Part shown: positions 3,053 to 44,371 of the stretch, piece after piece
Layout: every line of letters starts with the position of its first letter
Numbering within the stretch: position 1 is the stretch's first letter
NCBI GenBank assembly: GCA_003576975.1
Contig: QEVD01000004.1
Coordinates: forward strand, 1 to 44,371
Length of the DNA: 44,371 nt
Reading direction: 5' to 3'
DNA from: Candidatus Zhuqueibacterota bacterium
Lineage (GTDB): Bacteria; Zhuqueibacterota; Zhuqueibacteria; Zhuqueibacterales; Zhuqueibacteraceae
Notes under the pieces: model-generated
The model's input: only the letters and a program-made list of their open reading frames with translations
Databases searched by the model: none
Told to the model about the DNA's origin: nothing
Program-made: the position numbers and the translations under genes

Positions 3053-3057
3053 GTCAT

Positions 3058-4545: not shown

Positions 4546-4559
4546 GTCTAACTCCTCGT

Positions 4560-7154: not shown

Positions 7155-7189
7155 GGATTGTTCCTTGTATATTAGCGACCATTTTGGGC

Positions 7190-7254
7190 GAAGCCGGACC
7201 TTCGCGCCGACTCGCGGTGTAAGAATCAAAATCGTTTGGCGAAAGTCCGGCTTC
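7190..7254. repeat. Imperfect inverted repeat between csx19 and the RAMP gene
   Basis: gaagccggaccttcgcgcc at 7190-7208 and ggcgaaagtccggcttc at 7238-7254 are near-perfect inverse complements with about 30 bases between. It could fold as an mRNA hairpin in the only sizeable gap (98 nt) of the otherwise overlapping core operon. It may tune expression of the downstream genes or be a small transposed element. Confidence 0.6.
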
Positions 7255-11300: not shown

Positions 11301-11968
11301 GCTTTCACCTCCTTGACAAACTTTTCAAACAAAGTGCGTGTCATGTCGTTCTGTTTTTCGTTCAACAAATCCGCTTGCAGCCAGCCGCGCCCGCGATTGC
11401 GTCCGGTGCCGGCGCGACGAAAATCCAGCACTGTCGCAGCCAAGAGAGCTTCTTGTTCCGCCGTTAGAGTTTGTGTAAAATTCAAACTCGCTTCCAACAC
11501 GAGGCCGCGCAGCAAAACGCGCATGGCGCGTAGAGTGGTCTGTTCCGGTGCCCCGTCGGGGTTCATCGCGGTTTGGCGGCGAATGGCAGTGAGGGCATAT
11601 TCCACCTCCTCGCGTAGAAATGCCGCAGGTGTCTTGGCGCGTTCAATTAAAACCAGCGTGCGCAATGATTCCGGCAGGCGCGCATCACCCACGCGCAAAA
11701 TGCCTCGCTCTTCCAAATCGCGGCCGCGCCCAGGCTTTCCGAAAAGCGCATTCTTCGTGGTGCACCAATCTTTTTGCCCTTGTTTTTCGAGCGCATACAC
11801 CACGTTCTCAGCAGATTCTGCGAGCAGGCCTTTGAGGGTTCTGCCGCGCAAGAAGGGAAAGCCGTCGCGATCCTGCTCGATCTCGCGATCAACGAGGCCG
11901 GCAACGCCGTCACCACGGCCAAATGTTGCTGCGCTTTTCAAGGTCAATTTCAGAGTCATGTTTGTCAT
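11297..11968 (-). CDS. Cas7 (Csm3-like) RAMP backbone subunit
   Basis: 223 residues, single RAMP fold. ATFGRGDGVAGLVDREIEQD (14-33) precedes FPFLRGRTLKGLLAE (37-51); the loop between carries acidic residues D27 and D33 at about the place of the Csm3 catalytic aspartate. RRAGTGRNRGRGWLQ near the C-terminus is the glycine-rich loop. It would polymerise along the crRNA spacer and cut bound RNA every six bases. It overlaps cas10 and csx10 by four bases each. Confidence 0.85.
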   Translation of the reverse strand: MTNMTLKLTLKSAATFGRGDGVAGLVDREIEQDRDGFPFLRGRTLKGLLAESAENVVYALEKQGQKDWCTTKNALFGKPGRGRDLEERGILRVGDARLPESLRTLVLIERAKTPAAFLREEVEYALTAIRRQTAMNPDGAPEQTTLRAMRVLLRGLVLEASLNFTQTLTAEQEALLAATVLDFRRAGTGRNRGRGWLQADLLNEKQNDMTRTLFEKFVKEVKA

Positions 11969-13647: not shown

Positions 13648-14906
13648 AGGTACTCCGATGGAATTTCGGTTTGAAACCAATCCGTTAAATGCCTTTCCAA
13701 GTCTTGCAGCTCACGGCGGCCATAGACTTTGATGCGACCCTCAGCCTGCAGGACCTGCGCAGCATCGTATTCAATGCTCTTTGGATCTTCCGACATAGAA
13801 ATCAATGCCGCGCCCGCTTCATCGCCGCCGATCTGTTTGGCGCGAGTGAAGGCTTCGAAAAGTTTATATTTACTGTTTTGCTTGTGATGCCCAGAGTAGC
13901 AGGAAATGAAATGTAGTTGATAACCTCGCATCGCGGCAACATCGACTTGAAAATCGAATTTACCTTTACTTGATTTCAGCTCGATTTTGAAGTCCATTCC
14001 GGAGTTATTCAAAAGACGAGGATAGCGTGTGGCAATCTTCTGGAGCATTGCCAGCACGTAGCTTTCCATCCACTCCCCTTCCAGCCAATTGATGAGTTCC
14101 CCAGCACTTTTGAACGGCCAAACGTCCCTTCGTTGTTGACAAAGTTGCTTCCAAGTTATTTCAGCAGGACCATTTTGCAGCAATGCATTTGCAATTGTTG
14201 GGAACTCTTTCTCCAAATCTTCCAGTGTTCTGTCTTCAGCCTTTGGCTTTGGTTTTTCTAAATCTTTTTTGGACGGATTTTGCAGCTCCATTATCCATTT
14301 GCGCCACTTCAAGTAGCGATCCTCGTTGCCGTGCAACTCTTTCAAGGCTTCGACCACAGACGGAGCAACGGGTTCTCGCTTCGGGTTCTGCATGCCGACT
14401 ACTTCGTGAAAACTCAAGAGCTCTTTTAGTGTTAAACTGGCGCGAGGAGCTAGGCCGACAAAAATAGGCTCGCGGCCGTCGTCGAAATACATTTTCAAAC
14501 TGAGGGCATCGAGATAACTGAAAATCGGAGCGGGCGGGCCTTGTGCGCGCCCGTCTTTGATGGCAAAATAACCATGTACGGACATAACTTTGGTGCCGCC
14601 GGTATAGTTGAAACCGATCTGTCCGGATTTGATGGTTTTCACTTGCTGCTCAAGGGCACGATACACCTCATGGGGAGAAGAAGCGTCCAGCACAGGCACG
14701 TATATCGGAGGGCGATATTGCTGCTTGATTAAAACACCGGCTAAACGACGGGCGACTTCATTGGTTTCTTTTGAATGAACCAAATAAACCTGCCCGTCTT
14801 CGCGCAATAGCACCCTCGCCGCCACCCAATTGGGCAACGGATTGCCGCCAATGAGCAAAAACAAATGATCGCTTTTCAGTTCTTCCGGTATCGGATTATC
14901 TGCCAT
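13644..14906 (-). CDS. Card1/Can2-like CARF plus PD-(D/E)XK-type effector with altered active-site motif
   Basis: 420 residues from ATG at 14906, with GGAG nine bases upstream. Residues 12-150 are a CARF domain of the Card1 type: LFLLIGGNPLPNWVAARVL (15-33), VYLVHSKETNEVARRLAG (40-57) and NYTGGTKVMSVHGY (100-113), the ligand loops. A charged linker follows (190-235), then a DUF1887-like nuclease fold: LINWLEGEWMESYVL (271-285), FDFQVDVAAMRGYQLHFISC (317-336), YSGHHKQ and a closing QIGGDEAGAALIS. Family members usually show NE-x-D followed by ECK or SCK; here these read FQVD and SCY, so D322 remains but the usual glutamate and lysine positions hold Q and Y. Either the lysine is supplied by the nearby HHKQ or the nuclease is weakened. 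Expected role: cOA-activated cleavage of DNA or RNA. Confidence 0.8.
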   Translation of the reverse strand: MADNPIPEELKSDHLFLLIGGNPLPNWVAARVLLREDGQVYLVHSKETNEVARRLAGVLIKQQYRPPIYVPVLDASSPHEVYRALEQQVKTIKSGQIGFNYTGGTKVMSVHGYFAIKDGRAQGPPAPIFSYLDALSLKMYFDDGREPIFVGLAPRASLTLKELLSFHEVVGMQNPKREPVAPSVVEALKELHGNEDRYLKWRKWIMELQNPSKKDLEKPKPKAEDRTLEDLEKEFPTIANALLQNGPAEITWKQLCQQRRDVWPFKSAGELINWLEGEWMESYVLAMLQKIATRYPRLLNNSGMDFKIELKSSKGKFDFQVDVAAMRGYQLHFISCYSGHHKQNSKYKLFEAFTRAKQIGGDEAGAALISMSEDPKSIEYDAAQVLQAEGRIKVYGRRELQDLERHLTDWFQTEIPSEYL

Positions 14907-14988
14907 TTCACTTCTCCAATGTTCCAATCAAATCATCATAATCAACAATCCTGAAACGGGCAAACCCAACAACCTTACCACAACCTTG

Positions 14989-16158
14989 TCATTCCTCTAC
15001 CCGAATCAGCCTCCCGTCCAGTTTCAAGCCATAACATTTGCCATACCGTCCTACGGCACTAATCCGGTAAAGCTCAAAAGTTTCCAGATCGGCCAAAGCC
15101 AAATCTAGCTTGCGGTTGATCTTGCTGATGTATTGCAGCAGCCGCTCCAAAGTCAGGCCCTTGTCGCGTTGCAGGGAATCTTCAAAGCGCTTGAGCATAC
15201 CGGCGGCGCTGTCGAGGGCGCGATATTTGACCAGCAAATCTTTCAAGCTTGCGGCGGCTAAAAAAGCGCTGCCTTCCGGCTTTTCAAAATACTGCTCGTA
15301 AGCTTCACGCGGAATGGTCGGCGACCGCTTTTGGCTGCGCTCGGCAAAGTGCCAATACAAACAAAACTCGATGGGCGGCAGCTCGATCTCCCGGCCGCCG
15401 AGGCGCAGAAGCCGGCGTTTGGGAGCCAGTTGCAGCATGGGCGCACGCGGCAGCGCGGCGATTTCGGCTTGCGTCCACTGTAATAGTTCGGCGAAAGAGG
15501 CGCGGCGCTCAAGAACTTCTACCGGCAATTTCTCCCGCAGGCGGACATACGGAATCTCGACCAACTCGACTTTTACTTTGGCGCTGTCAAACTCGCGACC
15601 GTCGGACAAGCTGAAAATCTGTGACACCGGCGCGGGATAATAGAATTCCGCATGATGCTCCACCTCCGGCGGGGTCAGTAGGACGTGATAGAGCTTGTCC
15701 TGCTCGCGTCCCAGCATTTGCATCACCAGCGCCATGTAGGTGCTCATCGTCTTGCGTCCGCCGGCGAGAGAACAGTGTACAACGTTGTTCGGGTCGCTGG
15801 TTTTCTCCCACAGCACGCGCAAGATCAATTCAAGAAAGTTTTCGCTGTCTTGCCGGGTGCGAATATCCGCCAACGGCAATAGTCCATCCTGCGCTACGAA
15901 GATCTGGCCGGCGGAAAACTGTATTTGCCGGCAGTGATTGGGATAGTCATGCTGCAGTCGATAAAGCCATCCGCCATGCGGTTCGAGCAATTTATCGAGC
16001 GCTACCTGCCGGCCTTCTTGTGTGGAGATGGCCGAGACTTCCGAAATGGGTATCCCCTTCTGTACGCACAGGGCATACAGCGTCTCGGTCAAAACCTGGG
16101 GCGTGCGGCCCAACAGCGCGACCAGCAAATGCCGGTACTCCGGCGCGGGCTTGGACAT
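14989..16158 (-). CDS. Cas_NE0113 (TIGR02584) CARF protein, putative ring nuclease/sensor with winged-helix-like C-terminus
   Basis: 389 residues, first gene of the operon. The N-terminal domain is the NE0113 CARF type: LLVALLGRTPQVLTETLYAL (11-30), ISTQEGRQVALDKLL (44-58), ADIRTRQDSENF (97-108), HCSLAGGRKTMSTYM (128-142), GREQDKLYHVLL (150-161) and EFYYPAP (171-177). Proteins of this family bind cyclic oligoadenylate and are annotated as ring nucleases. From about 240, MLQLAPKRRLLRLGGREIEL then PPIEFCLYWHFAERSQ resembles the start of an OmpR-type winged helix; I infer possible DNA binding and a regulatory role, with modest confidence. The gene is 83 nt upstream of the Card1-like start. No convincing promoter is visible upstream. 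Confidence 0.82.
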   Translation of the reverse strand: MSKPAPEYRHLLVALLGRTPQVLTETLYALCVQKGIPISEVSAISTQEGRQVALDKLLEPHGGWLYRLQHDYPNHCRQIQFSAGQIFVAQDGLLPLADIRTRQDSENFLELILRVLWEKTSDPNNVVHCSLAGGRKTMSTYMALVMQMLGREQDKLYHVLLTPPEVEHHAEFYYPAPVSQIFSLSDGREFDSAKVKVELVEIPYVRLREKLPVEVLERRASFAELLQWTQAEIAALPRAPMLQLAPKRRLLRLGGREIELPPIEFCLYWHFAERSQKRSPTIPREAYEQYFEKPEGSAFLAAASLKDLLVKYRALDSAAGMLKRFEDSLQRDKGLTLERLLQYISKINRKLDLALADLETFELYRISAVGRYGKCYGLKLDGRLIRVEE

Positions 16159-17266: not shown

Positions 17267-17587
17267 ATGCAATCTTCATCGTCGCATTTGGGTCGGATCA
17301 CTTCTCCGCGTTTGCATAGCCACGCTCTTCGCGAACTCAACCACCCTCCTACCTCCAAAGATCACTGTTTTTCTCCACCCCAAAATGCAATCTCAATGCT
17401 GCTGCATGAGGAAAGTCCATTTCGATTGGATTTATCCGTTCGTCGCTTACCTTGCAAGACGCAATTTCATCCTGTTTATGATATACTGTTTGCCCCCGGC
17501 CCCTTTGGCATATTTTTCACTTTGGGAATGAACACGAAGCATTTAAAGCAAAATAAGCTTACTCAACTTTCTGACTTCGTGATTTGA
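17267..17587 (+). CDS. Unrecognised short reading frame ending inside the IS4 inverted repeat
   Basis: ATG at 17267 has GAGGAG seven bases upstream and a promoter-like pair 75 bases before that, so expression signals look real. The 106-residue product (MQSSSSHLGRITSPRLHSHA onwards) matches nothing I recognise and has no clear domain or membrane segment. The last eight or nine codons lie within the IS4 end (IS begins at 17561), so the original C-terminus was probably lost when the element inserted. It could equally be untranslated leader sequence. Confidence 0.25.
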   Translation: MQSSSSHLGRITSPRLHSHALRELNHPPTSKDHCFSPPQNAISMLLHEESPFRLDLSVRRLPCKTQFHPVYDILFAPGPFGIFFTLGMNTKHLKQNKLTQLSDFVI

Positions 17588-19089
17588 GGCTGTAAAAACA
17601 GGCCTGTGGCGTCACTTATGAGTTCGTCAATTAATTGGTTTAGAAGTTTTTCACCAAGCTCCCAACGCTGCCTTAACCGTTCAATCACAAATACCACGAG
17701 GCGGTTAATCGCCTGGGCGAGGGTCAAGTCTTTGAGTTCTTGTATACATTCTCGAAAGATGCCGTCGAGCGTGCGTTCATCCACGGCTTGGCGTTGTTGA
17801 CATGCCAACACCAGATAACGCGTAAACACGAGCGTGGTATGCGCAATCAAGGCATCATAACTTTTCGCTTGAATCTCTTTCGCCAGGCGTAGATGCGATT
17901 TGATGACTTTGAAGAAAACTTCGATATCACAGCGCTTGCCATAAATGCGAATGATTTCTTCCTCGGAAAGCGTCAGATCGGTTGACAACAAGGCCACCCA
18001 ACCTTTCTGATTTCGGCCGCTGGCAAATACGATACGCACACGCATGCCACAGGCCAGACGGACGATCACGCTGGCTTTGACGATGGCCTTACCACGGCGT
18101 TTTTTGAGCACGGCATACAAATCGCCCAGCCGTAACGTGCGTCGGCGATAACGATACCGAATGCCGGGCATGTCTTTGAGCATACAGATCACATCGAAAT
18201 TCCGTCGCAGGCGCTTGATGGCGATGATCAAGCCGGGGAACGCGAACCAGCTGTCCATCAGAACATAACGCGCGGACAGTCCGGCAGCGAGCGCACGCTT
18301 GAGCATCAGCAGTACGTTTTCAGGCGCTGTTTTCAAGGCTTCCAAGCGTCTTTGGTAACCGCGACTGCGTTTTGAAATATTTTCGTTGATGGCGTTGATG
18401 CGCTTATCTTCCTTCGTGGCCGCCAGCAAGGCAAAGTCGGCAGGCACCAACGTATTGCCATCCGACCAAGCCAGGGTGAGCAAGCGAAAACCTTTGATGG
18501 ACTTTTCCAGCAGATGATCAAAGACCCAACTCAACAACTCGGTGCATTTGCTGCGCGCACGGGCATAGATCGAACTATCGATGATGAAAACCTTCTCACG
18601 TTGTTCGCTGGTGAGCGGTTGAAAGAAACGGTTGATCAGGGTGACAGAGAGCGTGAGCAAAAATCGGCGCCAATTGTAACGCGGGTTATTCAACAACGCA
18701 TAAATCGTGTCTTTGCACATGCCCGGCAAACCTGCTGCAATTAGATCGTGGTAAAAGGATTGCTGGGCAAAGGGCAGTTGCAGAATCTTGGCCAAAATAT
18801 CAAAGGGCGACGCACCGCGACGTTTCCGAATCTGACAGCATCTGAGCAACGACTTCACGCCGAAGGCTTTCAAAAAAGCGACCATCTTATTTTCGATTTG
18901 GATCGCATGAAAATTTTGCCCATTTTTCATCTTACAGGCCCTTTCTGGTTGCGTGTGGTTTGTTCAAAAAGTGTTTAATGGCATGAACAAATTTACGCAA
19001 ACCATGAGGGCCTTTTCAATTGCTATCGCCAAAAACTACAAGAAAATTCAATAAAATCGCGGTCTAAACGATAAGTCAGAAAGTTGAGT
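17561..19089. mobile_element. IS4-family insertion sequence with 17-bp terminal inverted repeats
   Basis: ACTCAACTTTCTGACTT at 17561-17577 is the exact inverse complement of 19073-19089. The 1529-bp segment between holds one transposase gene on the minus strand whose last codons and stop lie inside the left repeat. I cannot see a target-site duplication: the flanks (aataagctt on the left, ttggaaaaa on the right) do not match, so a rearrangement may have removed it. Confidence 0.85.
17563..18930 (-). CDS. IS4-family DDE transposase
   Basis: 455 residues, apparently full length. It has an N-terminal helical DNA-binding region, then the DDE core: IIDSSIYAR (first Asp), YVLMDSWFAFPGLI (second Asp) and IYGKRCDIEVFFKVIKSHLRL near 330-350, which is the IS4 Y-x2-R-x2-IE-x2-FK-x2-K block carrying the catalytic Glu. 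All three acidic positions are present and no frameshift is seen, so the element may be active. The ATG at 18930 follows a weak purine-rich stretch. The C-terminus (TKSES) is encoded by the terminal repeat. Confidence 0.9.
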   Translation of the reverse strand: MKNGQNFHAIQIENKMVAFLKAFGVKSLLRCCQIRKRRGASPFDILAKILQLPFAQQSFYHDLIAAGLPGMCKDTIYALLNNPRYNWRRFLLTLSVTLINRFFQPLTSEQREKVFIIDSSIYARARSKCTELLSWVFDHLLEKSIKGFRLLTLAWSDGNTLVPADFALLAATKEDKRINAINENISKRSRGYQRRLEALKTAPENVLLMLKRALAAGLSARYVLMDSWFAFPGLIIAIKRLRRNFDVICMLKDMPGIRYRYRRRTLRLGDLYAVLKKRRGKAIVKASVIVRLACGMRVRIVFASGRNQKGWVALLSTDLTLSEEEIIRIYGKRCDIEVFFKVIKSHLRLAKEIQAKSYDALIAHTTLVFTRYLVLACQQRQAVDERTLDGIFRECIQELKDLTLAQAINRLVVFVIERLRQRWELGEKLLNQLIDELISDATGLFLQPQITKSES

Positions 19090-19284: not shown

Positions 19285-20666
19285 AGTTTGTGGCGAAGGA
19301 TAAACGGTGGCGCTAAGCGGGTCGGGGCGGGCTTCTCTCCCGCCCCTCCCACACCACCGGACATGCGGGTCCGCATCCGGCGATTCATTGCGGGTAGTGA
19401 TACGCGCACCAGAGTTCTTTGATGGAAAGCAATCCTTGACGAGCGAGCCAGGCATTATTCACCCCGTAGGATAGATCACATATAGGGCTTTCATACAAAT
19501 AGTGCGTTTATCCAACGGGGTAAATCCCAAGTTGTGTCGCATACGTGCGCGAGAGTTTCCACCAGCCTTTACTGCTCATGCCGAGGGAAATCGCCATGTC
19601 TTGCGGCACGCCGAGTTTGAGTAGCTGACTGATGCGCGTGCGCGGTTTGGGCCATTGTTTGATATAGCACATCCGCACACGACGACGCAGCCACTCGTCC
19701 AACTCTGGCACGGGACGATAATACTCTGACAGCGCATAGTAACCCATCCAGCCACGGAGGTAACGTGACAGCTCTTCCATTCGCCGGCGCATCGAGATGC
19801 CCCAACTGCGTCTCGTCAAGGTTTTGACATTCTGCTTGAAGTCCGCAAGCGATCGATCTGACCAGATGATGCGCTTGTCCTTGAACGTGAAGCCAAGGTA
19901 TTCGCAGTCATCTGCGTTAACGATCTTGCTCTTCTCCTGGTTGACTGCCAGTTTGAGCTTGTCTTGCAGGTAGCGCGTCACGCTCGCCATCACACGATGA
20001 GCCGCGCGCTCGCTTCTGACCAGTATAACAAAGTCATCTGCATAACGCACAAAGCGGTGGCCACGCTTTTCAAATTCTTTGTCAAAATCATCCAAGACGA
20101 TGTTCGCTAGCAATGGTGACAGCGGCCCGCCTTGCGGAACGCCTTCACGCGTTGCCTGGAGTTCGCCATCGACCATGACACCCGCACGCAGGTAACGGCC
20201 GATCAATCGCAGCACGCGCTTGTCTTTGACTTTGCGGGCGACGCGGGCCATCAGAATGTCGTGAACGACGCGGTCGAAGAATTTCGACAGGTCAACATCG
20301 ACGACCACTTTGTAGCCCTGCTTGATTAACGCTCGCACGGTCTTGACCGCGTCATGCGCCGAGCGATTCGGGCGGAAGCCAAAGCTCCATTCCGAAAAGG
20401 TCGGGTCGAAGATTGGTTGCAGCACCTGCAGGACGGCTTGTTGGATCAGGCGGTCGAGTACCGTCGGGATACCGAGCGGTCGTTTGCCGCCACTGCGCTT
20501 GGGAATCTCAACGCGTTTGACAGGAAGCGGCTGATAGGTGCCATCAAGCAGTGCTTGTTTGACACGCGGCCAGTGTTCGCGAATGTAGGCCGGAAAGTCG
20601 TCAATGGTGATGCCATCAACGCCCGCGGCGCCTTGATTCGCGCGCACTTGCTTCCAGGCGCGATTA

Positions 20667-21674
20667 CAGAGTTGTGCACTTGCATGTTCATGAAAATTAG
20701 TTGTAAATTCATGGGTATGAAAGCATACCCACTTGAACTCCGGCGTCGAATCGTGAACGCGGTTGATCTGCAGGAATGAACGATTGCGCAGATTGCCGAC
20801 ATGTTTAGCGTCACTGAGCGTTACGTTTACAAATTGCTCGCCCAACGCAACGAAACCGGTGATGTAGTACCACGTCCTCATGGCGGAGGCGCGTCGGCGA
20901 AATTGGATGAATCACACATATTGAAATTGAAGGAACTGATCACCGCTCAACCCGACGCCACTCTAGCGGAACTCTGCGAGAAGCTCAATCAACGCCGTCG
21001 GCAGAAAGTAAGCATCAGCACGGTCTGCCGGAGCTTGCAGAAGATCGACCTCACGCGAAAAAAAAGTCCCGTCGCTCACGCGAAGCGAGCCCGTCAGAGC
21101 GCGCGGCCTTCGCAAAAAACAGTTGAGCCTGCCCACTGCGCGGCTCTGGTTTATTGACGAATTTGGCGTGCATTTGGGTATGACTCGCGATTACGCGCGC
21201 GCTCCCCGCGGTAAACGCGCAGAAGCGGTGGAACGATTTGAGACGGGTGCCAATATTTCGGTCATCTGCGCTCTCACCTTGGAGGGCGTGCAAGCACCGA
21301 TGATGATTGAAGGCGCCATTGACACGAGCGTGCTAGAACAGTATGTCGAGCATTTTCTCGCGCCTTTGTTGCGCCCGGACGACATTGTCTTGTGGGACAA
21401 CGTCGCAATTCACAAAAACGCAAATGTCATCGCACGGATTCAAGCGACAGGTGCACAACTTGAGCCGCTCCCAGCCTATTCGCCAGACTTTGATCCAATT
21501 GAAGAATGTATTTCAAAGGTCAAAGTTTTTCTGCGTAAAATCAAAGCCGATACTATGATTACTTTGCGACGCGCTTTGAAACAGGCCTTTGCTCAAGTCA
21601 CGAAGCAAGACATTCGCGGTTGGTTTCAACATAGCGGTTATATTATAACATAAACACTCAATTGCAAAACGCTG
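20667..21674 (+). mobile_element. IS630-family element inserted in the intron RT gene
   Basis: Boundaries are directly readable. The left end CAGAGTTGTGCACTTGCATG and the inverse complement of the right end, CAGCGTTTTGCAATTGAGTG, match at most positions, and TA flanks both sides (20665-20666 and 21675-21676), the expected IS630/Tc1 target duplication. Length is 1008 bp. Precise removal restores the RT reading frame as NL-NRAW. Confidence 0.88.
20711..21653 (+). pseudogene. IS630-family transposase with an in-frame TGA and a frame change
   Basis: The expected N-terminus MKAYPLELRRRIVNAVDLQE (ATG 20717) is followed by an in-frame TGA at 20777-20779, then TIAQIADMFSVTERYVYKLL in the same frame, a helix-turn-helix. 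The first frame ends at 21157. The catalytic part continues in another frame from about 21120, at a run of six A: LWFIDEFGVHLG (Asp), VLWDNVAIHKN (Asp), YSPDFDPIEECISKVK (Glu). The DDE triad is complete. IS630 transposases are often made by programmed frameshifting at an A run, but moving between the two frames here needs +1, and the nonsense codon is a separate lesion. The element is probably not autonomous. Confidence 0.8.
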
Positions 21675-22410: not shown

Positions 22411-22751
22411 AAGCGCGTGTTGCGGACGCTGGCGCGCGAGTTGTCCTTCAAATCGTGCAAGTTTCAAACGTTTTTTGGATTCGGCTGTGGATCTCGCCGA
22501 GCGCGCCGCGCCGCAAACGCGCATCGTTGATCGTTTTGTATTGAGGAGAATATGGAAATATTTATCTGAAAAAACGGAGACATTGATATGTTTTTAAACA
22601 TAAAATTTAGGAGAGATTTATGGAAAATTGTAAAATAGCATTTTCAATAAACGGGAAAACACTCACTATTGAAAGTTGACAAGAACCATAAAAATTGTTA
22701 TCGACGAAAACAGTTTTGTACATTTATTGTATTAAGTTGGAGGGCTGGGCT
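22411..22751. other. Exon flank of the intron and leader of the DUF4832 genes
   Basis: No supported gene. The first part (22411-22545) is the intron's upstream flank and seems to be a remnant of coding sequence, but no frame is convincing. A 19-codon frame with a good ribosome site (GGAGAG, ATG 22620, stop 22679) may be a relic or a leader peptide. The rest is AT-rich and probably holds the promoter of the next genes. Confidence 0.4.
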
Positions 22752-24569
22752 TTGAAAAAAGTATTCAGAGTGAATGAAATAATGTTCATCGTTGGCCTGG
22801 TGTTGACAGGCTCGTTGTGTGTTGCATGTGCGGGGAAGGCTCCCGGAAACAACACTGTATTGGATGGTATGGATGGTGCGGATGACAGAGATGTTGCCCC
22901 GCTGGTGTTACAGGCGCTTGACTATACGGAGAATCCTGTTGATATACCAAATCCGGACAGGGGCTTTTACAGACCCAAAGAATATGTGGTTCCGGTCGAC
23001 AGCGGAACTCCGGTTTTACCTGACTTGGGAGCCGTTATTAGTGGTACCACGGTCTTTGTCAACGCCCGCATCGTTTATATGTCATTTGACCTCAGGAACT
23101 TTTCGTCGAATGCCCCTCTCACCGGAATGCCCATCGGGCCCTGGAGTGCTGATGGTGCTCTTCCGCCGGATTATGGAACAACTCAACCTTTAACACCCGC
23201 TGCGCTTGATTATGTAAGGGCAGCGCTTCAAAGAGTAAAAGAAAGCGAAGCCGTTGCCATTGTGAAATTTAGTTATGACGGACGGGGCTTTACTTATAAT
23301 AATCGTGGAGGATATAACCAGTTCATTCATGATTGCGAACCAGGGGCGCCACAAGGTCGGGTTTGGTATGAAACAGGTGTTCCACAAGAATCTGATTTGT
23401 GTGGCATCCCCGGTCATGAGGACAAAAACTGGGTGGAATATCATCTTTGGCAGCTTGGAAATGTTTTCAGCGAATTTGAAGAGACCATAATGGCTGTCAA
23501 AGGGGGTATCTTTGGCCCATGGGGCGAAATGCACTCGTCATCATATGCCAGAACAGCGGAAGGTTACCACTGGCTTTTGAAAGCGTTGCTGGGCTATGTT
23601 CCCGCTTCGCGTTCCATTTTAGTACATGCGGGCGGAGTCATGGCGTGGCATAACGTTGAGTATGGTACCGAGTATAGCTTTACTCATTTGATGCCGGCCC
23701 CGGCACGCGGAACACCGGCGCAGCGTTTCGGTATGTTCAACGATAGCTATTCGGCGGGTTCGAGAGGCAGCTCATATGATGACAATGGCTCGCTTTCCGA
23801 GGGGTATAGATTAATTGGAGGCGATTTTGATCGTAACGCTGCTTTAACCTGGATGAGAAATCAAAATAACTTCTACGGCGGTGAAACAGTTGGGCCCGGG
23901 TCTGGCGATAATATCTACCCCAGATTTCCGAACGTTCTCTATGAAGCCGCTTATGCTCAAACAACTCATTTGAATACAAGTTATAGCTCACGCACTTACA
24001 AACTTTGGGGCGATTTTGTCTATAATAAAGAAAATGTCACCGCACCGTTTACCTCTCCACACGATGGAGTGACTCGAACGGCAATCTTTGATCCGGTATA
24101 CAACGGCAGAAACGGAATGGAATATGTCCGCGATAGATTGGGCTACCGGTTGGTGCTGCGCGAGGCTAATGCAAGTGAATGGGTAAAGCAGAATGGTACC
24201 CTGAAGTTCGAAGGGAAGATCCAAAACGTCGGTTTTGGTACTGTAGTCAACAAGAAAAATGTGTCGATAATTCTGAAACCTAAGGAAGGTCATAACACCC
24301 ACACGGCACTTACGAACCTTGACGCAAGGAACTGGCGGCCCGATCTGGACAGCAGGCCGGACAATACCGCTGCATGGCGTGATTTGAACTTCTCGGTAAA
24401 AATGTCCGCATTTGGCAGCGTTCCTGCCGGGGAGTATGATATTTACCTGAAGATCAATGATCCCAAAGAACAAAGCGCTAACAAGCGCTGTATTCGGTTT
24501 GCGAATTATAATATCTGGAATACATCCCTTGGCGCAAATTTGATTGGTTCGACCAAAGTCACCCCCTGA
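22752..24569 (+). CDS. DUF4874/DUF4832 secreted (lipoprotein-like) protein, paralogue 1
   Basis: 605 residues from TTG at 22752, chosen because GGAGGG lies seven bases upstream and because the protein then opens like its neighbour (KKVFRVNEIMFIVGLVLTGS). A signal segment ends at CVACAG, a lipobox-like cysteine with an atypical -3 residue. Then come TENPVDIPNPDRGFYRPKE (the DUF4874 NP-x-RGF start), KFSYDGRGFTYN, GIFGPWGEMHSS and GYHWLLKALLGYVPA, and a C-terminal beta domain with RLGYRLVLREANASEWVKQN and LKFEGKIQNVGFGTV. DUF4874/DUF4832 proteins are extracellular TIM-barrel-like proteins thought to act on glycans; substrate unknown. Closely related to the next gene, 52 nt downstream. Confidence 0.8.
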   Translation: MKKVFRVNEIMFIVGLVLTGSLCVACAGKAPGNNTVLDGMDGADDRDVAPLVLQALDYTENPVDIPNPDRGFYRPKEYVVPVDSGTPVLPDLGAVISGTTVFVNARIVYMSFDLRNFSSNAPLTGMPIGPWSADGALPPDYGTTQPLTPAALDYVRAALQRVKESEAVAIVKFSYDGRGFTYNNRGGYNQFIHDCEPGAPQGRVWYETGVPQESDLCGIPGHEDKNWVEYHLWQLGNVFSEFEETIMAVKGGIFGPWGEMHSSSYARTAEGYHWLLKALLGYVPASRSILVHAGGVMAWHNVEYGTEYSFTHLMPAPARGTPAQRFGMFNDSYSAGSRGSSYDDNGSLSEGYRLIGGDFDRNAALTWMRNQNNFYGGETVGPGSGDNIYPRFPNVLYEAAYAQTTHLNTSYSSRTYKLWGDFVYNKENVTAPFTSPHDGVTRTAIFDPVYNGRNGMEYVRDRLGYRLVLREANASEWVKQNGTLKFEGKIQNVGFGTVVNKKNVSIILKPKEGHNTHTALTNLDARNWRPDLDSRPDNTAAWRDLNFSVKMSAFGSVPAGEYDIYLKINDPKEQSANKRCIRFANYNIWNTSLGANLIGSTKVTP

Positions 24570-24621
24570 TTTACATCGGCGAAGGTATACATTCATGAGA
24601 TTGGGTTGGAGGTTTGGGCTT

Positions 24622-26844
24622 ATGAAAAAAGTCATCAGACTGAATGAAATCGGGTTAATCGTTGGACTAATACTGACAGGATTGTTATGGGTCGCATGTG
24701 CGGGGAGGACTGCAGGAAACGACCTTCAATTGGAGGGCGCGGACGATAGTAAGGAAGGGCCGCTTGTGTTACAGGCGCTTGACTATACGGAGAATCCTGT
24801 TGATATACCAAATCCGGACAGAGGCTTTGAAAGAGGCAATGACGATGCTGCCGGCCTGGGTGCCTTTATCCCTGATAAACCGGGAGGTTCAAACTATTGG
24901 GGGTATATGACAGTTCCGGCAAGCGCCAATACAATTTTAGGCCAACCCTTTGAGATGGCTTACGAAATGACCCCGCCGATTTATTTTGGTCCGGAAGGAG
25001 CAGGTCCCGGGTATTGCAATGTCCCTGTTGAACCACGCATCGTTCAGTTCTACCTTGTCCTGAATGAATTTTCGTCGAATGCATGGTGCGATAGCTCCCC
25101 TGGTACTCCCGCTGACCATACTCGAGTAGGAGTAGACGGACCCATAACCTCCTATGGGCTTGATTTCATAAGTAAACAACTTGAATTCATAAGATCCAAC
25201 ACCAACAGTGTCGCGCATATACGCGTTTGTTATGACCCAAAAGGCTGGAACCATTTTGTTTGGACCGCAGATAATCTTAATTATGAAGACGACGGCCCCA
25301 CATCCGCCAATGAAAGATACTATTATAAGGCAGACTACGAAAAACCGGTTACGGCTGAGAATCGTGCTGCTCACATTGCAAAAGCAGGCGCGGGCACATG
25401 GAGAGGATCTTCGCCAATATTTAGAATGTGTACCGTGCCCGGGTTTACAGATATGAATTGGGTACAGTATCATTATCATCAGCTTAAGCCGATTTTCCAG
25501 GAATACTCAGACGTTTTATGGGCATTTGATTCGGGCACCTTTGGTCCCTGGGGCGAAAGCCACTCAAATTATGAAGCTGAAGTACCGGGCCATTACAAGA
25601 TCATTTTAAATTCATTGCTGGACGCGGTTCCCGATGGTAAACCGATAATGACGCACATTGGCGGGTTCCTGGATTGGTATAACCGCACATACAATACTAC
25701 TTATGACTTTGGCACACTGGATACCTTCCACACCCCGGTACGCGGTACGCCGGAGGCGCGTTTTGGTACGTTCGACGATTCAAATGGCTTTTCAGCGGAC
25801 GAATATTCTTATGGTGACAATGGCTCATTGACCGAAGGGTATAGAATGCTGGCGCATGATCCAATTCTGCCAGGATATAATCCAAACGGAGTGGATCCGT
25901 CACTAACTAGGCCCGGAGTATCACCGGTTATAGGGTATAATGATTCCGGAACCAACAGGCTTGTAGCCGTCCCGGAAGAGTTAGGTGATCCGCGGTGGCG
26001 TGGAGTCTATTTCATTGATTGGGATCGTACCAAGGTTATGAACTTCCTCGGCAAGATGTCCATCTACGGCGGTGAACAAATTGCTGAAGAGCCTGACTCC
26101 GGCACCAACGGAGGCTATGTTCCCGTCGGCAAACGAGTAGACAACCCTTTCAACGACGTGATTTTGCGTTTTCCTTCCATGTTCTATGAACACAGTATTT
26201 CCAAATTTACTTATATGTGTATGCAGCAGGGTCCGGGAAGTTTTAAGTCGAGGGCAGATTATCCTTATACACGAGCCAGCATTGATGTGGAGATAACGTA
26301 CCCGTGGAATGGTCAAACAGTGCAGGTTGTCTATGACCCGGTATATGAAGGCCAAAGCGCATTGGCATATTACCGTGACAGACTTGGCTACCGGCTGGTG
26401 CTGCGCGAGGCGAAAGCAAGTGAGTGGGTAAAGCAGAATGGCACCCTGATGTTCGAAGGCAAGATCCAAAACGTCGGCTGGGGTGAGATTTTTAACAAGA
26501 AAGCCGTGAAGGTGATTCTGAAATCCAGATCCAGCGGGTTTGTGTCCACTGCGGTGCTGACGAACATCGACCCGTATGATTGGCGGCCTGCCGAGGCGGG
26601 TCCGAATGGCGCAATGCCGGACTCCAGGGCAACCAATCCGGCTGCATGGCGTGATTTGAACTTCTCGGTTGAAATGTCCGCATTTGGCAGCGTTCCTGCC
26701 GGGGACTATGATATTTACCTGAAGATCAATGACCCCAAAGAGCGCAGCGCCAACAAGCGCTGCATACGGTTTGCGAATAAGGGAAATAGCTGGAATGCTG
26801 ACCTTGGCGCGAACTTAATTGGTTCGACTAAAGTCGTCCTCTAG
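24622..26844 (+). CDS. DUF4874/DUF4832 secreted (lipoprotein-like) protein, paralogue 2
   Basis: 740 residues from ATG at 24622 with GGAGG upstream. Same plan as paralogue 1: KKVIRLNEIGLIVGLILTGL, lipobox-like WVACAG, NPVDIPNPDRGFERGND, SGTFGPWGESHSN, PIMTHIGGFLDWYNR and the same C-terminal beta domain (RLGYRLVLREAKASEWVKQN). It is longer by insertions of about 130 residues in the barrel, including GTPADHTRVGVDGP and PNGVDPSLTRPGVSP. A 56-nt stretch (24766-24821) is identical to 22905-22960, and the 3' ends are also very similar, so the pair arose by recent tandem duplication or conversion. Probable exported glycan-active enzyme or binding protein. Confidence 0.8.
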   Translation: MKKVIRLNEIGLIVGLILTGLLWVACAGRTAGNDLQLEGADDSKEGPLVLQALDYTENPVDIPNPDRGFERGNDDAAGLGAFIPDKPGGSNYWGYMTVPASANTILGQPFEMAYEMTPPIYFGPEGAGPGYCNVPVEPRIVQFYLVLNEFSSNAWCDSSPGTPADHTRVGVDGPITSYGLDFISKQLEFIRSNTNSVAHIRVCYDPKGWNHFVWTADNLNYEDDGPTSANERYYYKADYEKPVTAENRAAHIAKAGAGTWRGSSPIFRMCTVPGFTDMNWVQYHYHQLKPIFQEYSDVLWAFDSGTFGPWGESHSNYEAEVPGHYKIILNSLLDAVPDGKPIMTHIGGFLDWYNRTYNTTYDFGTLDTFHTPVRGTPEARFGTFDDSNGFSADEYSYGDNGSLTEGYRMLAHDPILPGYNPNGVDPSLTRPGVSPVIGYNDSGTNRLVAVPEELGDPRWRGVYFIDWDRTKVMNFLGKMSIYGGEQIAEEPDSGTNGGYVPVGKRVDNPFNDVILRFPSMFYEHSISKFTYMCMQQGPGSFKSRADYPYTRASIDVEITYPWNGQTVQVVYDPVYEGQSALAYYRDRLGYRLVLREAKASEWVKQNGTLMFEGKIQNVGWGEIFNKKAVKVILKSRSSGFVSTAVLTNIDPYDWRPAEAGPNGAMPDSRATNPAAWRDLNFSVEMSAFGSVPAGDYDIYLKINDPKERSANKRCIRFANKGNSWNADLGANLIGSTKVVL

Positions 26845-31341: not shown

Positions 31342-31398
31342 ACTCAGAGTTCGCAGCGTCCGCTGCAACTGGAGTGGTTGAATCCCGCCGTGGCGGGA
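31342..31398 (+). terminator. Paired hairpins after the GH31 gene (terminator or degenerate palindrome)
   Basis: Two palindromes follow the GH31 stop: ACTC-AG-AGTTCGCAGCG-TC-CGCTGCAACTGGAGT (31342-31375, imperfect) and TCCCGCC-GT-GGCGGGA (31383-31398, perfect). There is no U-run, so intrinsic termination is uncertain. The remainder of the gap to 31680 shows no gene I can support. Confidence 0.4.
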
Positions 31399-31679
31399 GC
31401 TGCCCCGTATTGGAGTTTCAGTTGAAGCGTTCTTTGTTCAGGTGAGATGATTTCAGGTGAGAAGATGCGTGCGGCTTGAGTCTTGCCGGCTTTGTGAGGT
31501 GATACTTGCCCCGGGGCTTCTGGCAATCGGCGCAGCTTTCATCGACGGCCAAGCTGTAAGAGTATGGCCTAAGCCACTCGTTCCGCGGAGCAACCCGGAC
31601 AATATACTCGGTTGTGCTGTGCTCCGCAAATATCACGCTCCATGCTCCTCGCCATTCGCGGGCTCACGCTGGACGAACC

Positions 31680-33827
31680 ATGGCTATTAAACTCTCCAAC
31701 ATACTACTGGACGAACTGATCGCCTCCGGGCTCAAGCGTAACCTCACCATCTTCGCTGGCGCCGGGATTTCGGCGGCTCCGCCGACTAACCTACCGTTGG
31801 CCAGGGGGATGACTCACGCTATCGTGGGTGGCCTTTGCGGTCAGCGCACAGGCAAAGAGAATAATTCATTTTGGATGGCCGTTGACCGTTTGCGCCCCGA
31901 GCGGCTGCTCTCCATCCTCCACGAAGTGATGGGAGAAGAGGCCTTCACGCCTCTACGGCTACTTGGGGGCGCCGAACCAAACCGCAACCATCGCATGCTT
32001 GCCTCGTTGGCGGCCGCAGATTGCCTTGCTGCCATCATTACCACCAATTTCGACACAGCCATCGAGCAGGCCCTAACACAAGCCCGCATACCCTTTGCGC
32101 TGCTGGTGCTCGAGACAGAGTTCTCCGCGTGGGGCGGGCAGCCCTCGCCACTGCCGCTTCTCAAGTTACACGGCGCTCTTCCCTTTGCCCGTCACGGTGG
32201 CGGTCCCTTGGATGCGATGATGGAGCAGGTAGGTCGCCCGCTACCCAGAGCTAAGGCCGAGGCGCTGGTGCGACTCATCCAGACGACCGACCTGGTGGTC
32301 GTGGGCTACAGTGGGCGCGACGACTTCGACATCTACCCATTGCTCTACGAGACCAAGAGTGACCATGACTGCATCTGGATCGCGCACCCGGTGGCAAAAC
32401 CACCGGTGCGCCGCCGAGTATCTGGTGATGAGGCCGCCCATCTCAATTACGACGACTTCCTGGCTCTTTTCGCGGAATCTGTGGTGGCTGATCCTGTGGA
32501 GCGCCTGGTGGCTGCCCAGCCGCATCGTGTGCATCGCGTCGTGATGGATGCCGGAAAAATGCTCGATGAGCTGTGCTGGCAACTGTCTTACGAAACCTTC
32601 CCGGCGGCCGAAGAGGAACAGAAGCCAACGCTGTGGGAAAAGAAGGTCACAGCATGGGCAGAGCGGTTCCGAGGAACTGAGGTGCCGGCTCGGCTGGCCG
32701 AACGGATCAAGGCTGAAGGCGCAGCAGCCGCCACCAGAGAGTCGGTGATCTCAAGCGCCGCAAGCGCACCGAAAAGTATCGCGGAGTTGGAGGCAACCTT
32801 GCGCCAACAGATTGATCGTGGTGATGTGGTAAATCAGAGCGGTACGCTGCTTGCCCTCGCAAACGCATATGACTTGGCTGGGCAACCCGCTGCTGCTGTG
32901 GACCACTGGGTCGCGTGCTTGGCGATACTTTCCAAGACCCACCAGCTTGGCAAAGTACGGATGCGCACGGTTGTGGATACGCCGCAAGAGTTCACGCAGC
33001 CGATGGCGCGTGAGGCAATGGGACGCTTACTCGGGCATCTCGCCAGCAAGACCGGCTGGCCGCTCGCCAAACCAGCGCTCGCCACGCTCGAACGGCACCT
33101 GGAGGCGACCGACATCCGGCGTTACCTGCGCTCCCACATCTTCTCAGCTCTTCAATCGATCGATGCAGCCGAAATTGACGATGCGACGTGCGAGTGGCTT
33201 GGTTGGGTGATCGAGACACTGTCGGTCATCGATGAACCCGTCGCGATACCAGCCGGCATTGACCCAGAGAATCCAGAGCACCACGGTGAACTGAGAGAGC
33301 TAATGGCCGAGCACACGCTGAAAGTAGGCCGGCCGATTTGGCAGCGGCTGATTGCTCTGCTCGAAATTGTCGATAGTGCGCGGCCAAGCCTGGTACTTGA
33401 TTTCGTCACACGATGGGGCACTGGACCGCACCTTGACGAGCCGCTGCTCCCCTGGTTCACGGCGCTATGGTTGGGGCTTGGTGAGATTGAGCTAGAGGAA
33501 CGTCTGGATCGCTTGGAGTCGCTGGCCACCCACTCCAACCTCGGCGTCCAGGAGGCCGCGGCCTACTCTCTGCGAGTACTATCTCACCGGCATGCGGGTG
33601 CCGTGCTCATGCGGCTTACGCGTCTAGCAGCCCATGATGACGAGTGCGTGCGTGGAAACGTGGCGCTGGCACTCGCGGAGATGGCAAAGACCCGCCGGCG
33701 CGAGTCGCTCGCGCTGCTGAAGGTGCTGCGCCGCGACCGCAGCAGGCGCGTGCGCTCGCTCGCAGCAGAGGGCCAGCGGAGGATTCGTGGGCCACTCTGG
33801 AGGCGACTGCTCGGTTTGAATCGCTAG
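31680..33827 (+). CDS. SIR2-like domain protein with C-terminal HEAT-like repeats, candidate defence NADase
   Basis: 715 residues from ATG at 31680; the longer frame adds 22 residues without family likeness. Residues 20-260 are a SIR2-like domain: LTIFAGAGISAAP (22-34, NAD-binding loop), IITTNFDTAIEQAL (119-132), LLKLHGAL (160-167, with the catalytic-type His) and LVVVGYSGRDDFDIYPLL. Zinc-ribbon cysteines of true deacetylases are absent, as in SIR2-like NADases of phage defence. A helical linker follows (330-420), then an all-helical region ending in HEAT-like repeats (LGVQEAAAYSLRVLSHRH, ECVRGNVALALAEMAKTRRR, SRRVRSLAAEGQRRIRG). SIR2 plus helical repeats fits a sense-and-deplete abortive-infection protein, but a stand-alone role is inferred. 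The gene is clearly more GC-rich than its neighbours, so recent acquisition is likely. Confidence 0.78.
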   Translation: MAIKLSNILLDELIASGLKRNLTIFAGAGISAAPPTNLPLARGMTHAIVGGLCGQRTGKENNSFWMAVDRLRPERLLSILHEVMGEEAFTPLRLLGGAEPNRNHRMLASLAAADCLAAIITTNFDTAIEQALTQARIPFALLVLETEFSAWGGQPSPLPLLKLHGALPFARHGGGPLDAMMEQVGRPLPRAKAEALVRLIQTTDLVVVGYSGRDDFDIYPLLYETKSDHDCIWIAHPVAKPPVRRRVSGDEAAHLNYDDFLALFAESVVADPVERLVAAQPHRVHRVVMDAGKMLDELCWQLSYETFPAAEEEQKPTLWEKKVTAWAERFRGTEVPARLAERIKAEGAAAATRESVISSAASAPKSIAELEATLRQQIDRGDVVNQSGTLLALANAYDLAGQPAAAVDHWVACLAILSKTHQLGKVRMRTVVDTPQEFTQPMAREAMGRLLGHLASKTGWPLAKPALATLERHLEATDIRRYLRSHIFSALQSIDAAEIDDATCEWLGWVIETLSVIDEPVAIPAGIDPENPEHHGELRELMAEHTLKVGRPIWQRLIALLEIVDSARPSLVLDFVTRWGTGPHLDEPLLPWFTALWLGLGEIELEERLDRLESLATHSNLGVQEAAAYSLRVLSHRHAGAVLMRLTRLAAHDDECVRGNVALALAEMAKTRRRESLALLKVLRRDRSRRVRSLAAEGQRRIRGPLWRRLLGLNR

Positions 33828-35063: not shown

Positions 35064-35237
35064 CTGAGCGGGTCAGGGCGGGCTTCTCTCCCGCCCCTCC
35101 ACACATCGCCATGTATGTGGGTCGCCATTGGATACTATCTTCCAGGGTGCGTCGACATGCTGATCCCAACTTGCATCGCATATACGCGCGTTGATTGCCG
35201 CCACCCATTCCTGCTCATGCCGAGGGGCGTTTTCATT
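35064..35237 (-). mobile_element. Remnant 3' end of a second group II intron
   Basis: On the minus strand, KMKTPLGMSRNGWRQSTRVY-AMQVGIS is encoded at 35160-35237; it matches the C-terminus of the RT at 19508 (ISLGMSSKGWWKLSRTYATQLGIY). It is followed by a domain V/VI-like end whose hairpin GGGGCGGG-AGAGAA-CCCGCCC and tail GACCCGCT match 19312-19350 nearly base for base. The rest of the intron is absent. It has the same orientation as the intact copy about 16 kb to the left. Confidence 0.72.
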
Positions 35238-42300: not shown

Positions 42301-44371
42301 CCGGCAAGACGATACCAAACAGCCGCAAGCCCTCTCGTCCGGCTTGCACGGCCTCCACATATTTTGCCATGTTTTCATATTGAATGATACGCATGCTGTG
42401 AATTTCAGCGCGCTCCAGGCGGGTCGCGGCCTTATCCAAAAGCAGTGCGAAATAACGTTCGGCAGCCTCGAAATTGCCGCAGAGATATTCACACTCAGCC
42501 AGCTCGCGATGCAAAGCGAACGTCAAATCATATTGCAAAGGCCAGCCGTCGTGGCCCAGGAGATTCAAGCCGGCATTGAAATAATTCAAGGTCGGCTTAT
42601 ACGCCGTGGCTGACTTCGCTTTCAAACCGGCTTGCAAGTTCAATTTTGCTAGCTGTACTCTTTCTTCCGCCGCCGTCATTAACTCACTGCCGAGGTTCAA
42701 ATGGTTGACAATGTCAAAAAGCTTCTCTTCCCGTTCGGCGCCCGAGCCGTGCTGCAACATCAGCCTGCCAACCTGCAAATGCACGGACTTTTTGCGCTCC
42801 TCGGGAATTAACGCATACGCCGCCTGCTGCACGCGATCGTGCAAAAACCTGAATTCCGCTTCGGAAGAAGCTTCCGGAAGAAGTTCATAAGCGTTTCCAA
42901 GCGGCAGAATCAAGCCTTCCCGCACGGCTTCCCCTAGTTCACCAACAGTTTGTTGCACCGGTTTTTCATTCACCAGCGCCAAAGTTTTGCCATCAAACTG
43001 ATTGCCAATACAAGCGGCCAACTTGGTGACATGCTGGGTCGCAGCGGGAAGCTTTTGAATTTTTCCGGCCATTAAATCGACGACGTTATCGGTGATGCCG
43101 AGGCGCTGTATGCGCGCCAAATCGAACTGCCAAAAGCCTTCACGATAGTCGAATTCCAGCAATTTCTCCTGATGCAACGTTCTTAAAAACTGCGTAACAA
43201 AAAAAGGATTCCCGGCGGTTTTTTGTGCGATCAAGTCCGTGAGCGAGGCCGCGTCGTGGGCCTCGCGGCGCAGCGTATCCGCGACAAACTGGTTGAGATG
43301 GGCAAAGTCCAGGGCTTTCAGCGTGATGCTGTTCAGCTTGCCACTGGAGTTTTTTGTATCGCTCTTTTCGATCTCCGTGAGCGTCAGCATTAAAGGGTGG
43401 GCCGCATTGACTTCGTTATCACGATAAGCGCCAATGACAAAAAGATAACGGCTCTGCGGGTCGGTCATGAGAGCCTGCAGCAACTTCAGCGTAGCGGAAT
43501 CCGCCCACTGCAAATCGTCCAAAAAGATAACGAGCGGGTGTTCCGGCTGTGTAAAGACGCTGATGAAGCGCTGAAAGACCAGCAGGAAACGGTTTTGCGA
43601 CTCTGCCGGCGGCAACTCCGGAACGGCAGGCTGAACGCCGATGATCCATTCGACCTCCGGAATTACGCCGGTGATGACTTGACCATTCGGCCCGAGCGCG
43701 TTGCTGAGCTTGTCTTTCCAGGCGGCAATCTCCTGCTCGCTTTCAGCCAACAACAGCCGCACCAATTCCTGCAATGCGTGAATGACGGCGCTGTAAGGGA
43801 TATTGCGCTTGAGCTGATCGAATTTGCCGGCAATAAAATAGCCGCGTTGCTTGGCGATCGGCTTGTGTACTTCGTTGACCAACGCCGATTTGCCGATGCC
43901 CGAATACCCGGAAACCAACATGATCTCTGTTGCGCCCCGGCTAATACGATCAAAAGCGGCCAGCAAGGCCGCGATTTCTTGTTCGCGGCCGTATAATTTT
44001 TGAGGGATGTGAAAGCGGTCGGAAAAGTCATTTTGCCCCGGCCTGAAGTTGACAATCTTTCCATTTGCCTGCCATTGCGCAAAGCAACTTTCTAAATCTG
44101 CGTGTAAACCGTGGGCGCTTTGATACCTGTTCTCAGCGGTTTTTGCCATTAACTTCATGACAATATCGGAAAGCGCTTTCGGCACATCAGTATTCAGCCT
44201 CTCTGGCGGCGCTGGGACTTTTGCAATATGGGCGTGCACCAATTCCAACGGATCAGCCAGCTCGAACGGCAGCCTGCCGGTGAGCATCTCGTAGAAAGTA
44301 ACGCCGAGCGAATAAAGATCCGTGCGATAATCAATCGACCGATTCATGCGCCCGGTTTGCTCCGGCGACAT
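39353..44371 (-). CDS. Ser/Thr kinase-AAA ATPase-GAF-sigma54 activator-Fis fusion regulator (N-terminus beyond window edge)
   Basis: 1672 residues are visible; the protein begins outside the window. The first 115 residues are the C-lobe of a protein kinase (SPEQTGRMNRSIDYRTDLYS, the APE/activation segment, and LYSLGVTFYEMLTGRLPFEL). Then YGREQEIAALLAAFDRI and VSGYSGIGKSALVNEV start a STAND-type ATPase, followed by a long helical TPR-like region (about 570-1190). A GAF domain follows (SEITLARLLEKLMRIVLENA onwards), then a coiled coil, then a sigma54-activator AAA+ domain: GATGTGKELVARAIH (Walker A), ELFGHEKGAFTGATAKKKGR (GAFTGA loop, contacts sigma54), GGTIFLDEIGELPLETQAKL (Walker B) and the WPGNVRELANVLERA segment. 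It ends with a Fis-type helix-turn-helix (GGANGAAMRLGLNRTTLLAK). It should turn a phospho- or ligand signal into sigma54-dependent transcription. All AAA+ motifs are intact. Confidence 0.9.
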   Translation of the reverse strand: MSPEQTGRMNRSIDYRTDLYSLGVTFYEMLTGRLPFELADPLELVHAHIAKVPAPPERLNTDVPKALSDIVMKLMAKTAENRYQSAHGLHADLESCFAQWQANGKIVNFRPGQNDFSDRFHIPQKLYGREQEIAALLAAFDRISRGATEIMLVSGYSGIGKSALVNEVHKPIAKQRGYFIAGKFDQLKRNIPYSAVIHALQELVRLLLAESEQEIAAWKDKLSNALGPNGQVITGVIPEVEWIIGVQPAVPELPPAESQNRFLLVFQRFISVFTQPEHPLVIFLDDLQWADSATLKLLQALMTDPQSRYLFVIGAYRDNEVNAAHPLMLTLTEIEKSDTKNSSGKLNSITLKALDFAHLNQFVADTLRREAHDAASLTDLIAQKTAGNPFFVTQFLRTLHQEKLLEFDYREGFWQFDLARIQRLGITDNVVDLMAGKIQKLPAATQHVTKLAACIGNQFDGKTLALVNEKPVQQTVGELGEAVREGLILPLGNAYELLPEASSEAEFRFLHDRVQQAAYALIPEERKKSVHLQVGRLMLQHGSGAEREEKLFDIVNHLNLGSELMTAAEERVQLAKLNLQAGLKAKSATAYKPTLNYFNAGLNLLGHDGWPLQYDLTFALHRELAECEYLCGNFEAAERYFALLLDKAATRLERAEIHSMRIIQYENMAKYVEAVQAGREGLRLFGIVLPETKEAKQSAFEAELLSIQNRRGDRAIADLIHLPVMGDAEMKMSMKLLMTVWAPAYIAGDGDLATLVSAMMVRLSLEYGNTEASSYGYVTHAITAGSGLGDYKSGYEYGCLALAVNEKFHDLKLRAKTHHMFSCFVNFWRQPIRTCFTHSKDAYRSGLEIGDFVYATYAAIHESWHAFFSGYELPQFQKDYSPNVNFLDQIKNYSFADAQRLILHWGLALQGLTSSKTSFTDATFDEAAYLKNYTGAAFFETFYYTTKLNVHYLFENYEEARKMALKAESAIHALFGTLWMTTLCFYHALTLAALYGSAEDEKQRDDRQKLESLQAQMKLWAANCPENFQHEFLLISAEMARITEKPYEAVVNYEQAIQSAREQGIIQHEALANELCAKFWLERNNGKIARSYMAEARYGYQQWGAQAKARDLEQRYPQLFAPISEESNAPITWPASQFTIGRRLESLDLQTVIKASHAISSEITLARLLEKLMRIVLENAGAQKGILILEKEDKLFIEAEAAVGKQDEIIVLQSIPIETSRALSPAIVNYVRRTHESLVVAEAVADSRFLHDPYILQNQTRSLFCLPILHQNKLSGILYLENNLTTAAFTPDRIAVMQMLSAQAAIALENAGLYEEMKQEVAERKRAEEALRAALDEVEQLKNRLQAENVYLQEEIRTHQNFEEIAGASAAMQAVFRNIEKVAHTDTTVLITGATGTGKELVARAIHSSSSRKESALITVNCSALPSGLIESELFGHEKGAFTGATAKKKGRFELADGGTIFLDEIGELPLETQAKLLRVLQEQEFERVGSTQTLKVNTRVIAATNRDLEQEVKLGSFRADLFYRLNIFPIHLPMLRERRDDIPVLTHHFVSKFSRRLGKKIDRVASEALERLTRYDWPGNVRELANVLERAVILCDGGVLQNDHLSISLQPVKPETEMLTMQEAERRHILKALEESNWVVGGANGAAMRLGLNRTTLLAKMKKLGIEKEPA

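Follow-up and report, generated by a model that had tools for sequence, protein, structure and literature searches.

A SIR2_2 protein with a helical C-terminal region as a candidate NAD+-depleting defence protein in Candidatus Zhuqueibacterota

The window analysed here, 44,371 nucleotides of contig QEVD01000004.1 from a Candidatus Zhuqueibacterota bacterium, carries at 31680-33827 (+) a gene (P0001) for a protein in which a SIR2 domain is joined to a long helical-repeat region. Proteins of this general build include enzymes that destroy NAD+ during phage infection, and the locus raises the question of whether its product is such an enzyme, an NAD+-using enzyme of some other pathway, a toxin of a mobile element or a protein deacetylase.

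The SIR2 domain and its predicted active site

The reading frame is intact, with an ATG start and 715 codons without interruption; a GTG at 31614 lies in frame upstream of the ATG at 31680, and its use as the start would add 22 codons. The SIR2_2 domain is assigned to residues 1-303 (31680-32588) and is recognised by Pfam SIR2_2 (PF13289) over residues 118-215 (32.3 bits; cut-off 24.5). The three SIR2 motifs that an earlier note had reported as intact were all located by motif scan: GAGIS, the NAD-binding loop, at residues 27-31 (31758-31772), TTNFD with the predicted catalytic Asn123 at residues 121-125 (32040-32054), and LKLHG with the predicted catalytic His164 at residues 161-165 (32160-32174), the last two being placed also by alignment to SPARSA. 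None of 20,000 shuffles of the 715-residue protein contained the three in this order and spacing. A fourth motif, GYSGRDDFD at residues 209-217 (32304-32330), was found by motif scan and alignment to be common to the nearest relatives. All of these features are on the forward strand. Zinc cysteines, which the same note held to be absent, are indeed missing, as a pattern scan found no C-x(1-4)-C pair throughout the protein; a similar scan found no Walker A motif.

In a single-sequence phmmer comparison (E 0.05), N142 and H186 of the SPARSA Sir2 domain align with N123 and H164. Mutation of either SPARSA residue abolishes NAD+ consumption (PMC10781750, excerpt), and the key residues of DSR2 are N133 and H171 (PMC11263360, excerpt). 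An alignment of ten SIR2 domains, from the window protein and nine relatives, has 20 invariant columns, which include G27, G29, S31, N101, H104, T121, T122, N123, D125, E129, H164, G165, G209, Y210 and D214. This alignment leaves out the viral rows L029-L031 and L032 as well as the plasmid rows L004-L006, which stand in a second alignment of six domains; G27, S31, N123, D125 and H164 are invariant in both (10/10 and 6/6). The catalytic Asn and His are thus present and conserved, contrary to what would be expected of an active site unable to bind NAD, and the SIR2_2 domain is predicted to act as an NAD+ hydrolase through the pair N123 and H164.

The closest solved relatives of the domain are antiphage NADases, in sequence and in modelled structure. 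A profile built from the aligned SIR2 domains and searched against the sequences of solved structures gave 60 matches at E up to 1, with SPARSA (E 3e-12), DSR2 (7.5e-11), KomBC/KomC (2e-9 and 9e-9) and ThsA (9e-8) ahead of both FAM118B (5e-6) and the best-placed deacetylase-type Sir2 (1e-5). The AlphaFold model of the 715 residues has a mean pLDDT of 64, and a large part of the SIR2 core (residues 20-230) reaches 70-93, with several blocks lower. Comparison of the modelled SIR2 part by VIA-align gave Z scores of 21.7 for SPARSA, 19.4 for ThsA, 19.3 for DSR2, 18.5 for KomC and 17.9 for Sir2-HerA, followed by 16.6 for an archaeal Sir2-NAD complex (a deacetylase homologue) and 15.9 for human FAM118B, so that the modelled domain matches the NADases of SPARSA, ThsA, DSR2, KomC and Sir2-HerA better than it matches protein deacetylases. 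In a Foldseek search with the full-length model, ranks 1 to 16 are all occupied by DSR2, at an rmsd of about 30 Å, which confines the real structural match to the SIR2 part. The resemblance to DSR to which the earlier note had pointed holds for the fold of the SIR2 domain but does not reach beyond that domain in sequence. These placements agree with membership of the SIR2_2 group, which includes ThsA, DSR1 and DSR2, is without the zinc module needed for deacetylation, and has members that carry joined Piwi, Macro, HEAT, TIR and TPR domains (PMC12700824, excerpt).

The C-terminal region, its counterparts and known SIR2 systems

Residues 304-715 (32589-33824) are wholly helical in both models, that of the full-length protein and that of the C-terminus folded alone, and seven helices at 605-714 have a pLDDT of about 60-85 over most of their length. 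The HEAT-like helices formerly proposed for the C-terminus are borne out as far as the all-helical structure goes, but the family assignment is less firm, with HEAT_2 matching residues 612-697 (33513-33770) at 21.7 bits in the full protein and 22.7 bits when the C-terminus was scanned by itself, under the cut-off of 27.7. ARM/HEAT-type solenoids head the Foldseek list for the C-terminal model; as the mean pLDDT of this model is 55, the search is read as indicating a helical solenoid and no further. No relatives of the C-terminus were detected in plasmids (E up to 1), in viral contigs or, by sequence, among solved structures, and scans of genome_contigs and viral_contigs with the full protein, which use short patterns and can miss relatives, gave no match to it either. 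The region is presumed to be a sensor, a role that rests on analogy given the sub-cut-off HEAT matches and the poor C-terminal model.

Relatives of the protein share its SIR2 core and carry tails of another repeat type. The scan of genome_contigs yielded 67 candidate stretches, seven of them true relatives, from Acidobacteria, Caldithrix, Desulfobacteraceae, Sigynarchaeota (two), Lokiarchaeota and Rhodospirillales; true relatives also make up four of 46 candidates in viral contigs, and three were found in plasmid records, all conjugative. Seven relatives were scanned for domains: SIR2_2 is above cut-off in each, TPR arrays are above cut-off in five (L020, L021, L024, L025 and L026), and a HEAT match is present in none of the seven. 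The SIR2-TPR proteins from Caldithrix, Acidobacteria, Lokiarchaeota and Sigynarchaeota MAGs (L002, L021, L025, L024 and L026) are 25-34% identical to the window protein in the SIR2 domain and have the GYSGxDDFD motif in common with it, whereas their tail is a TPR array above the Pfam cut-off and that of the window protein is HEAT-like. (L022 lies on the same contig as L020 and is the same protein as L002.) The SIR2_2 core is therefore common to distant bacteria and Asgard archaea, its known range gains a sparsely sampled phylum, and the occurrence of one SIR2 core with different solenoids in related genomes makes sensor exchange testable. A tree of 13 SIR2 domains has long branches and one well-supported inner branch out of ten, for which reason no placement is claimed and the frequency of tail change cannot be read from it.

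The architecture itself is not new, since SIR2 domains fused to HEAT or TPR repeats are already published (PMC12700824 and PMC11263360, excerpts). A close counterpart in layout is DSR2, a single protein in which an N-terminal SIR2 domain precedes an all-helical C-terminus with HEAT repeats (PMC11263360, excerpt). In the window protein the N-terminal domain is likewise of the NADase type with an Asn/His pair, and the helical C-terminus is long and HEAT-like. The two differ in length (1005 and 715 residues), and the HEAT part of the window protein is weaker and placed elsewhere. DSR1 and DSR2 extend over about 1000 residues, in which an HTH, a helix bundle, HEAT repeats and a C-terminal domain are distinguished, and this full-length layout is matched in sequence in its SIR2 part only. 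The activator of DSR2 is a phage tail tube protein.

By definition, the protein does not belong to SPARSA, Thoeris, Avs5 or Sir2-HerA. SPARSA offers the closest solved SIR2 domain by both sequence and structure, but its Sir2-APAZ protein is accompanied by an adjacent short Argonaute, while the window protein lacks any APAZ match beyond residue 215, its pAgo-type profile matches being limited to residues 96-215, and its gene does not adjoin an Argonaute gene. ThsA shares the SIR2 NADase fold; Thoeris has a SLOG or macro domain and an adjacent ThsB, neither of which was found by Pfam or among the neighbours. Avs5 (SIR2-STAND) is alike in its SIR2 effector and in C-terminal repeats that possibly include TPR (PMC12931631, excerpt), but has a STAND NTPase with a Walker A motif; the window protein matches no NTPase family. 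Sir2-HerA has an adjacent HerA ATPase gene, and the window gene is flanked by a GH31-type glycosidase gene and an NHL-type propeller gene instead. FAM118B, a vertebrate SIR2_2 protein, also belongs to the subfamily without the zinc module; the excerpted text of PMC12700824 describes no helical-repeat tail for it, and the window protein has one. The protein thus looks like an added member of the known SIR2_2 defence-like family rather than a new kind of system, and its orphan C-terminal tail is the source of some interest in an otherwise ordinary SIR2 protein.

Distribution and genomic surroundings

The gene is accessory and strain-variable, not housekeeping. The protein finds a match in only three of the 82 genomes of the phylum, one of them the window genome itself; the other two, from the same genus (G001) and the same class (G031), match in the SIR2 domain only, and the G031 match, on Caldithrix sp. 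contig DYKB01000113.1, is the same ORF as the Caldithrix relative above. A wider set, scored for no more than the two top candidates in each genome, gave matches in four of 388 genomes, one of them outside the phylum. The gene is missing from G099, a second genome of this species, where the DNA of 22.4-37.2 kb is matched only in short or repeat-like stretches, while 42917-44371 is 98% identical; as both assemblies consist of hundreds of contigs, the absence could also stem from an assembly gap. SIR2_2 as a family is found in 27 of the 82 phylum genomes, and its genes turn over, numbering four in the window genome and one in G099. The three further SIR2_2 genes of the window genome (L041-L043, on G000 contigs C767, C629 and C593) encode one protein of 1175 residues and two short ones adjoining large NTPase-like or Xre-type helix-turn-helix genes, and are taken to be other SIR2 systems on neighbours read by eye.

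The SIR2 gene stands alone between its GH31 and NHL-type neighbours, neither of which is a defence gene. That it sits on the same accessory block as mobile elements, as had been suggested, is true insofar as 22.4-37.2 kb is poorly matched in G099; the transposase (17563-18930) and the group II intron reverse transcriptase (19508-20881) lie 11-16 kb off. A transposase remnant and intron fragments do occur around the gene, and a stretch downstream of it (35064-35226), which resembles parts of the group II intron at 19.3-19.6 kb, is a probable intron remnant. Upstream, an intergenic sequence at 31367-31501 (+) has diverged copies elsewhere in the genome, two clear and one a weaker pattern match; both clear copies adjoin unrelated genes, and it is consequently classed as a dispersed repeat. 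The idea that the gene is an integron cassette was rejected because cassette-like repeats do not frame it. Import was also considered on the basis of G+C content, which is 61% for the SIR2 gene, 46% for GH31 and 56% for the NHL-type gene, and was dropped since the TIR (61%) and methyltransferase (59%) genes are equally high.

No gene is common to all flanks of the relatives inspected (L019, L020, L021, L023-L028 and the plasmid loci L004-L006). In a same-genus genome (L019, 7288-11602), a TIR-like gene (TIR_2 17.2 bits, cut-off 28) and a gene of unknown family are lined up before a SIR2_2 gene, and an ORF that looks integrase-like by eye lies close to them on the opposite strand. This order is suggestive of a partner set, but it does not recur at other loci and was set aside. 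On a viral contig (L028, 3330-6656), a Schlafen/AlbA_2 gene lies 45 bases ahead of the SIR2_2 gene.

Proposed function and alternatives

Taken together, the SIR2 domain, its intact NAD site and the accessory distribution support the earlier suggestion of a SIR2-like NADase as a candidate. The protein is probably a single-gene, DSR-like effector and sensor that depletes NAD+ upon a trigger from a phage or mobile element. This reading draws on a SIR2_2 match above cut-off, on the conserved N123 and H164, on antiphage NADases as the best profile and model matches, on a rare gene that is absent from the same-species genome while SIR2_2 genes turn over, and on the TPR, HEAT and other domains known from SIR2_2 proteins (PMC12700824, excerpt). 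Against it count the solitary position of the gene and the lack of a shared operon among its nearest relatives. The N-terminal SIR2_2 domain would use N123 and H164 to cleave NAD+ into ADP-ribose and nicotinamide, and would be held off by the C-terminal, HEAT-like solenoid. Binding of an intracellular phage or mobile-element trigger to the solenoid would alter the conformation or the oligomeric state of the SIR2 domains, and the domains so activated would deplete NAD+ and bring the infected cell to growth arrest or death. NADase activity, autoinhibition, trigger, oligomerisation and defence role are all features that we infer. A more specific version, in which the usual TPR sensor of a SIR2_2 NADase has been swapped for an orphan HEAT-like solenoid to give a one-protein phage alarm recognising a trigger novel for SIR2 systems, is possible but doubtful.

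The SIR2 domain might instead serve a different pathway of stress or conflict, in which it would use NAD+ as an ADP-ribosyl transferase or as an enzyme of signalling nucleotides; this is unlikely. A common fold is no proof of NADase activity, a defence partner is absent beside the gene, and human FAM118B (Z 15.9) processes NAD outside phage defence (PMC12700824, excerpt); on the other side, antiphage NADases are the nearest solved relatives in both sequence and structure, and the gene is distributed as an accessory gene would be. Rather improbable, too, is a toxin or addiction module whose depletion of NAD+ would maintain a mobile element or counter rival plasmids, defence being a by-product. 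Such a module would suit a block missing from the same-species genome and three relatives on conjugative plasmids, but neither an antitoxin-like partner beside the gene nor terminal repeats framing it were seen. It is very improbable that the gene is decayed or non-expressed within its island: the remnants around it and the failure to find an upstream promoter consensus could be read in this way, but the scan covered one promoter type only, the 715 codons are open and every active-site residue that is invariant among the relatives is retained in the protein. A canonical sirtuin deacetylase with a substrate-binding helical tail has weak NCBIfam deacylase matches in its favour (best E 5e-4; 19.1 bits, cut-off 243) but is hardly credible, as the zinc cysteine pairs on which deacetylation depends (PMC12700824, excerpt) are absent and profile and structure scores are higher for antiphage NADases.

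The SIR2 protein had been paired, as a second NAD-depleting candidate, with the TIR protein of the same window. The TIR gene (1099-1851, -) is 30 kb off, on the other strand and beside a type III-D CRISPR locus, and no functional link between the two genes was found in the window, so the pairing is unsupported. The C-terminus of the TIR protein (residues 190-245) matches Csx15, and the gene next to it, at 685-1095 (-), is Csx20-like (E 1.4e-31). Both genes lie beyond the CRISPR locus, at the left margin of the window, and the TIR protein is possibly a CRISPR-linked effector. The locus itself (2054-16158, -) holds type III-D effector genes (Cas10, Csx10-type Cas5, Cas7 fusions and Csx19), and further genes in it encode a CARF-PDDEXK protein, a CARF protein of the ring-nuclease type and an AAA ATPase. 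Between this locus and the SIR2 gene, at 22695-26844 (+), lie two tandem lipoprotein-like genes that are similar by eye in their N- and C-terminal parts and have apparently arisen by duplication.
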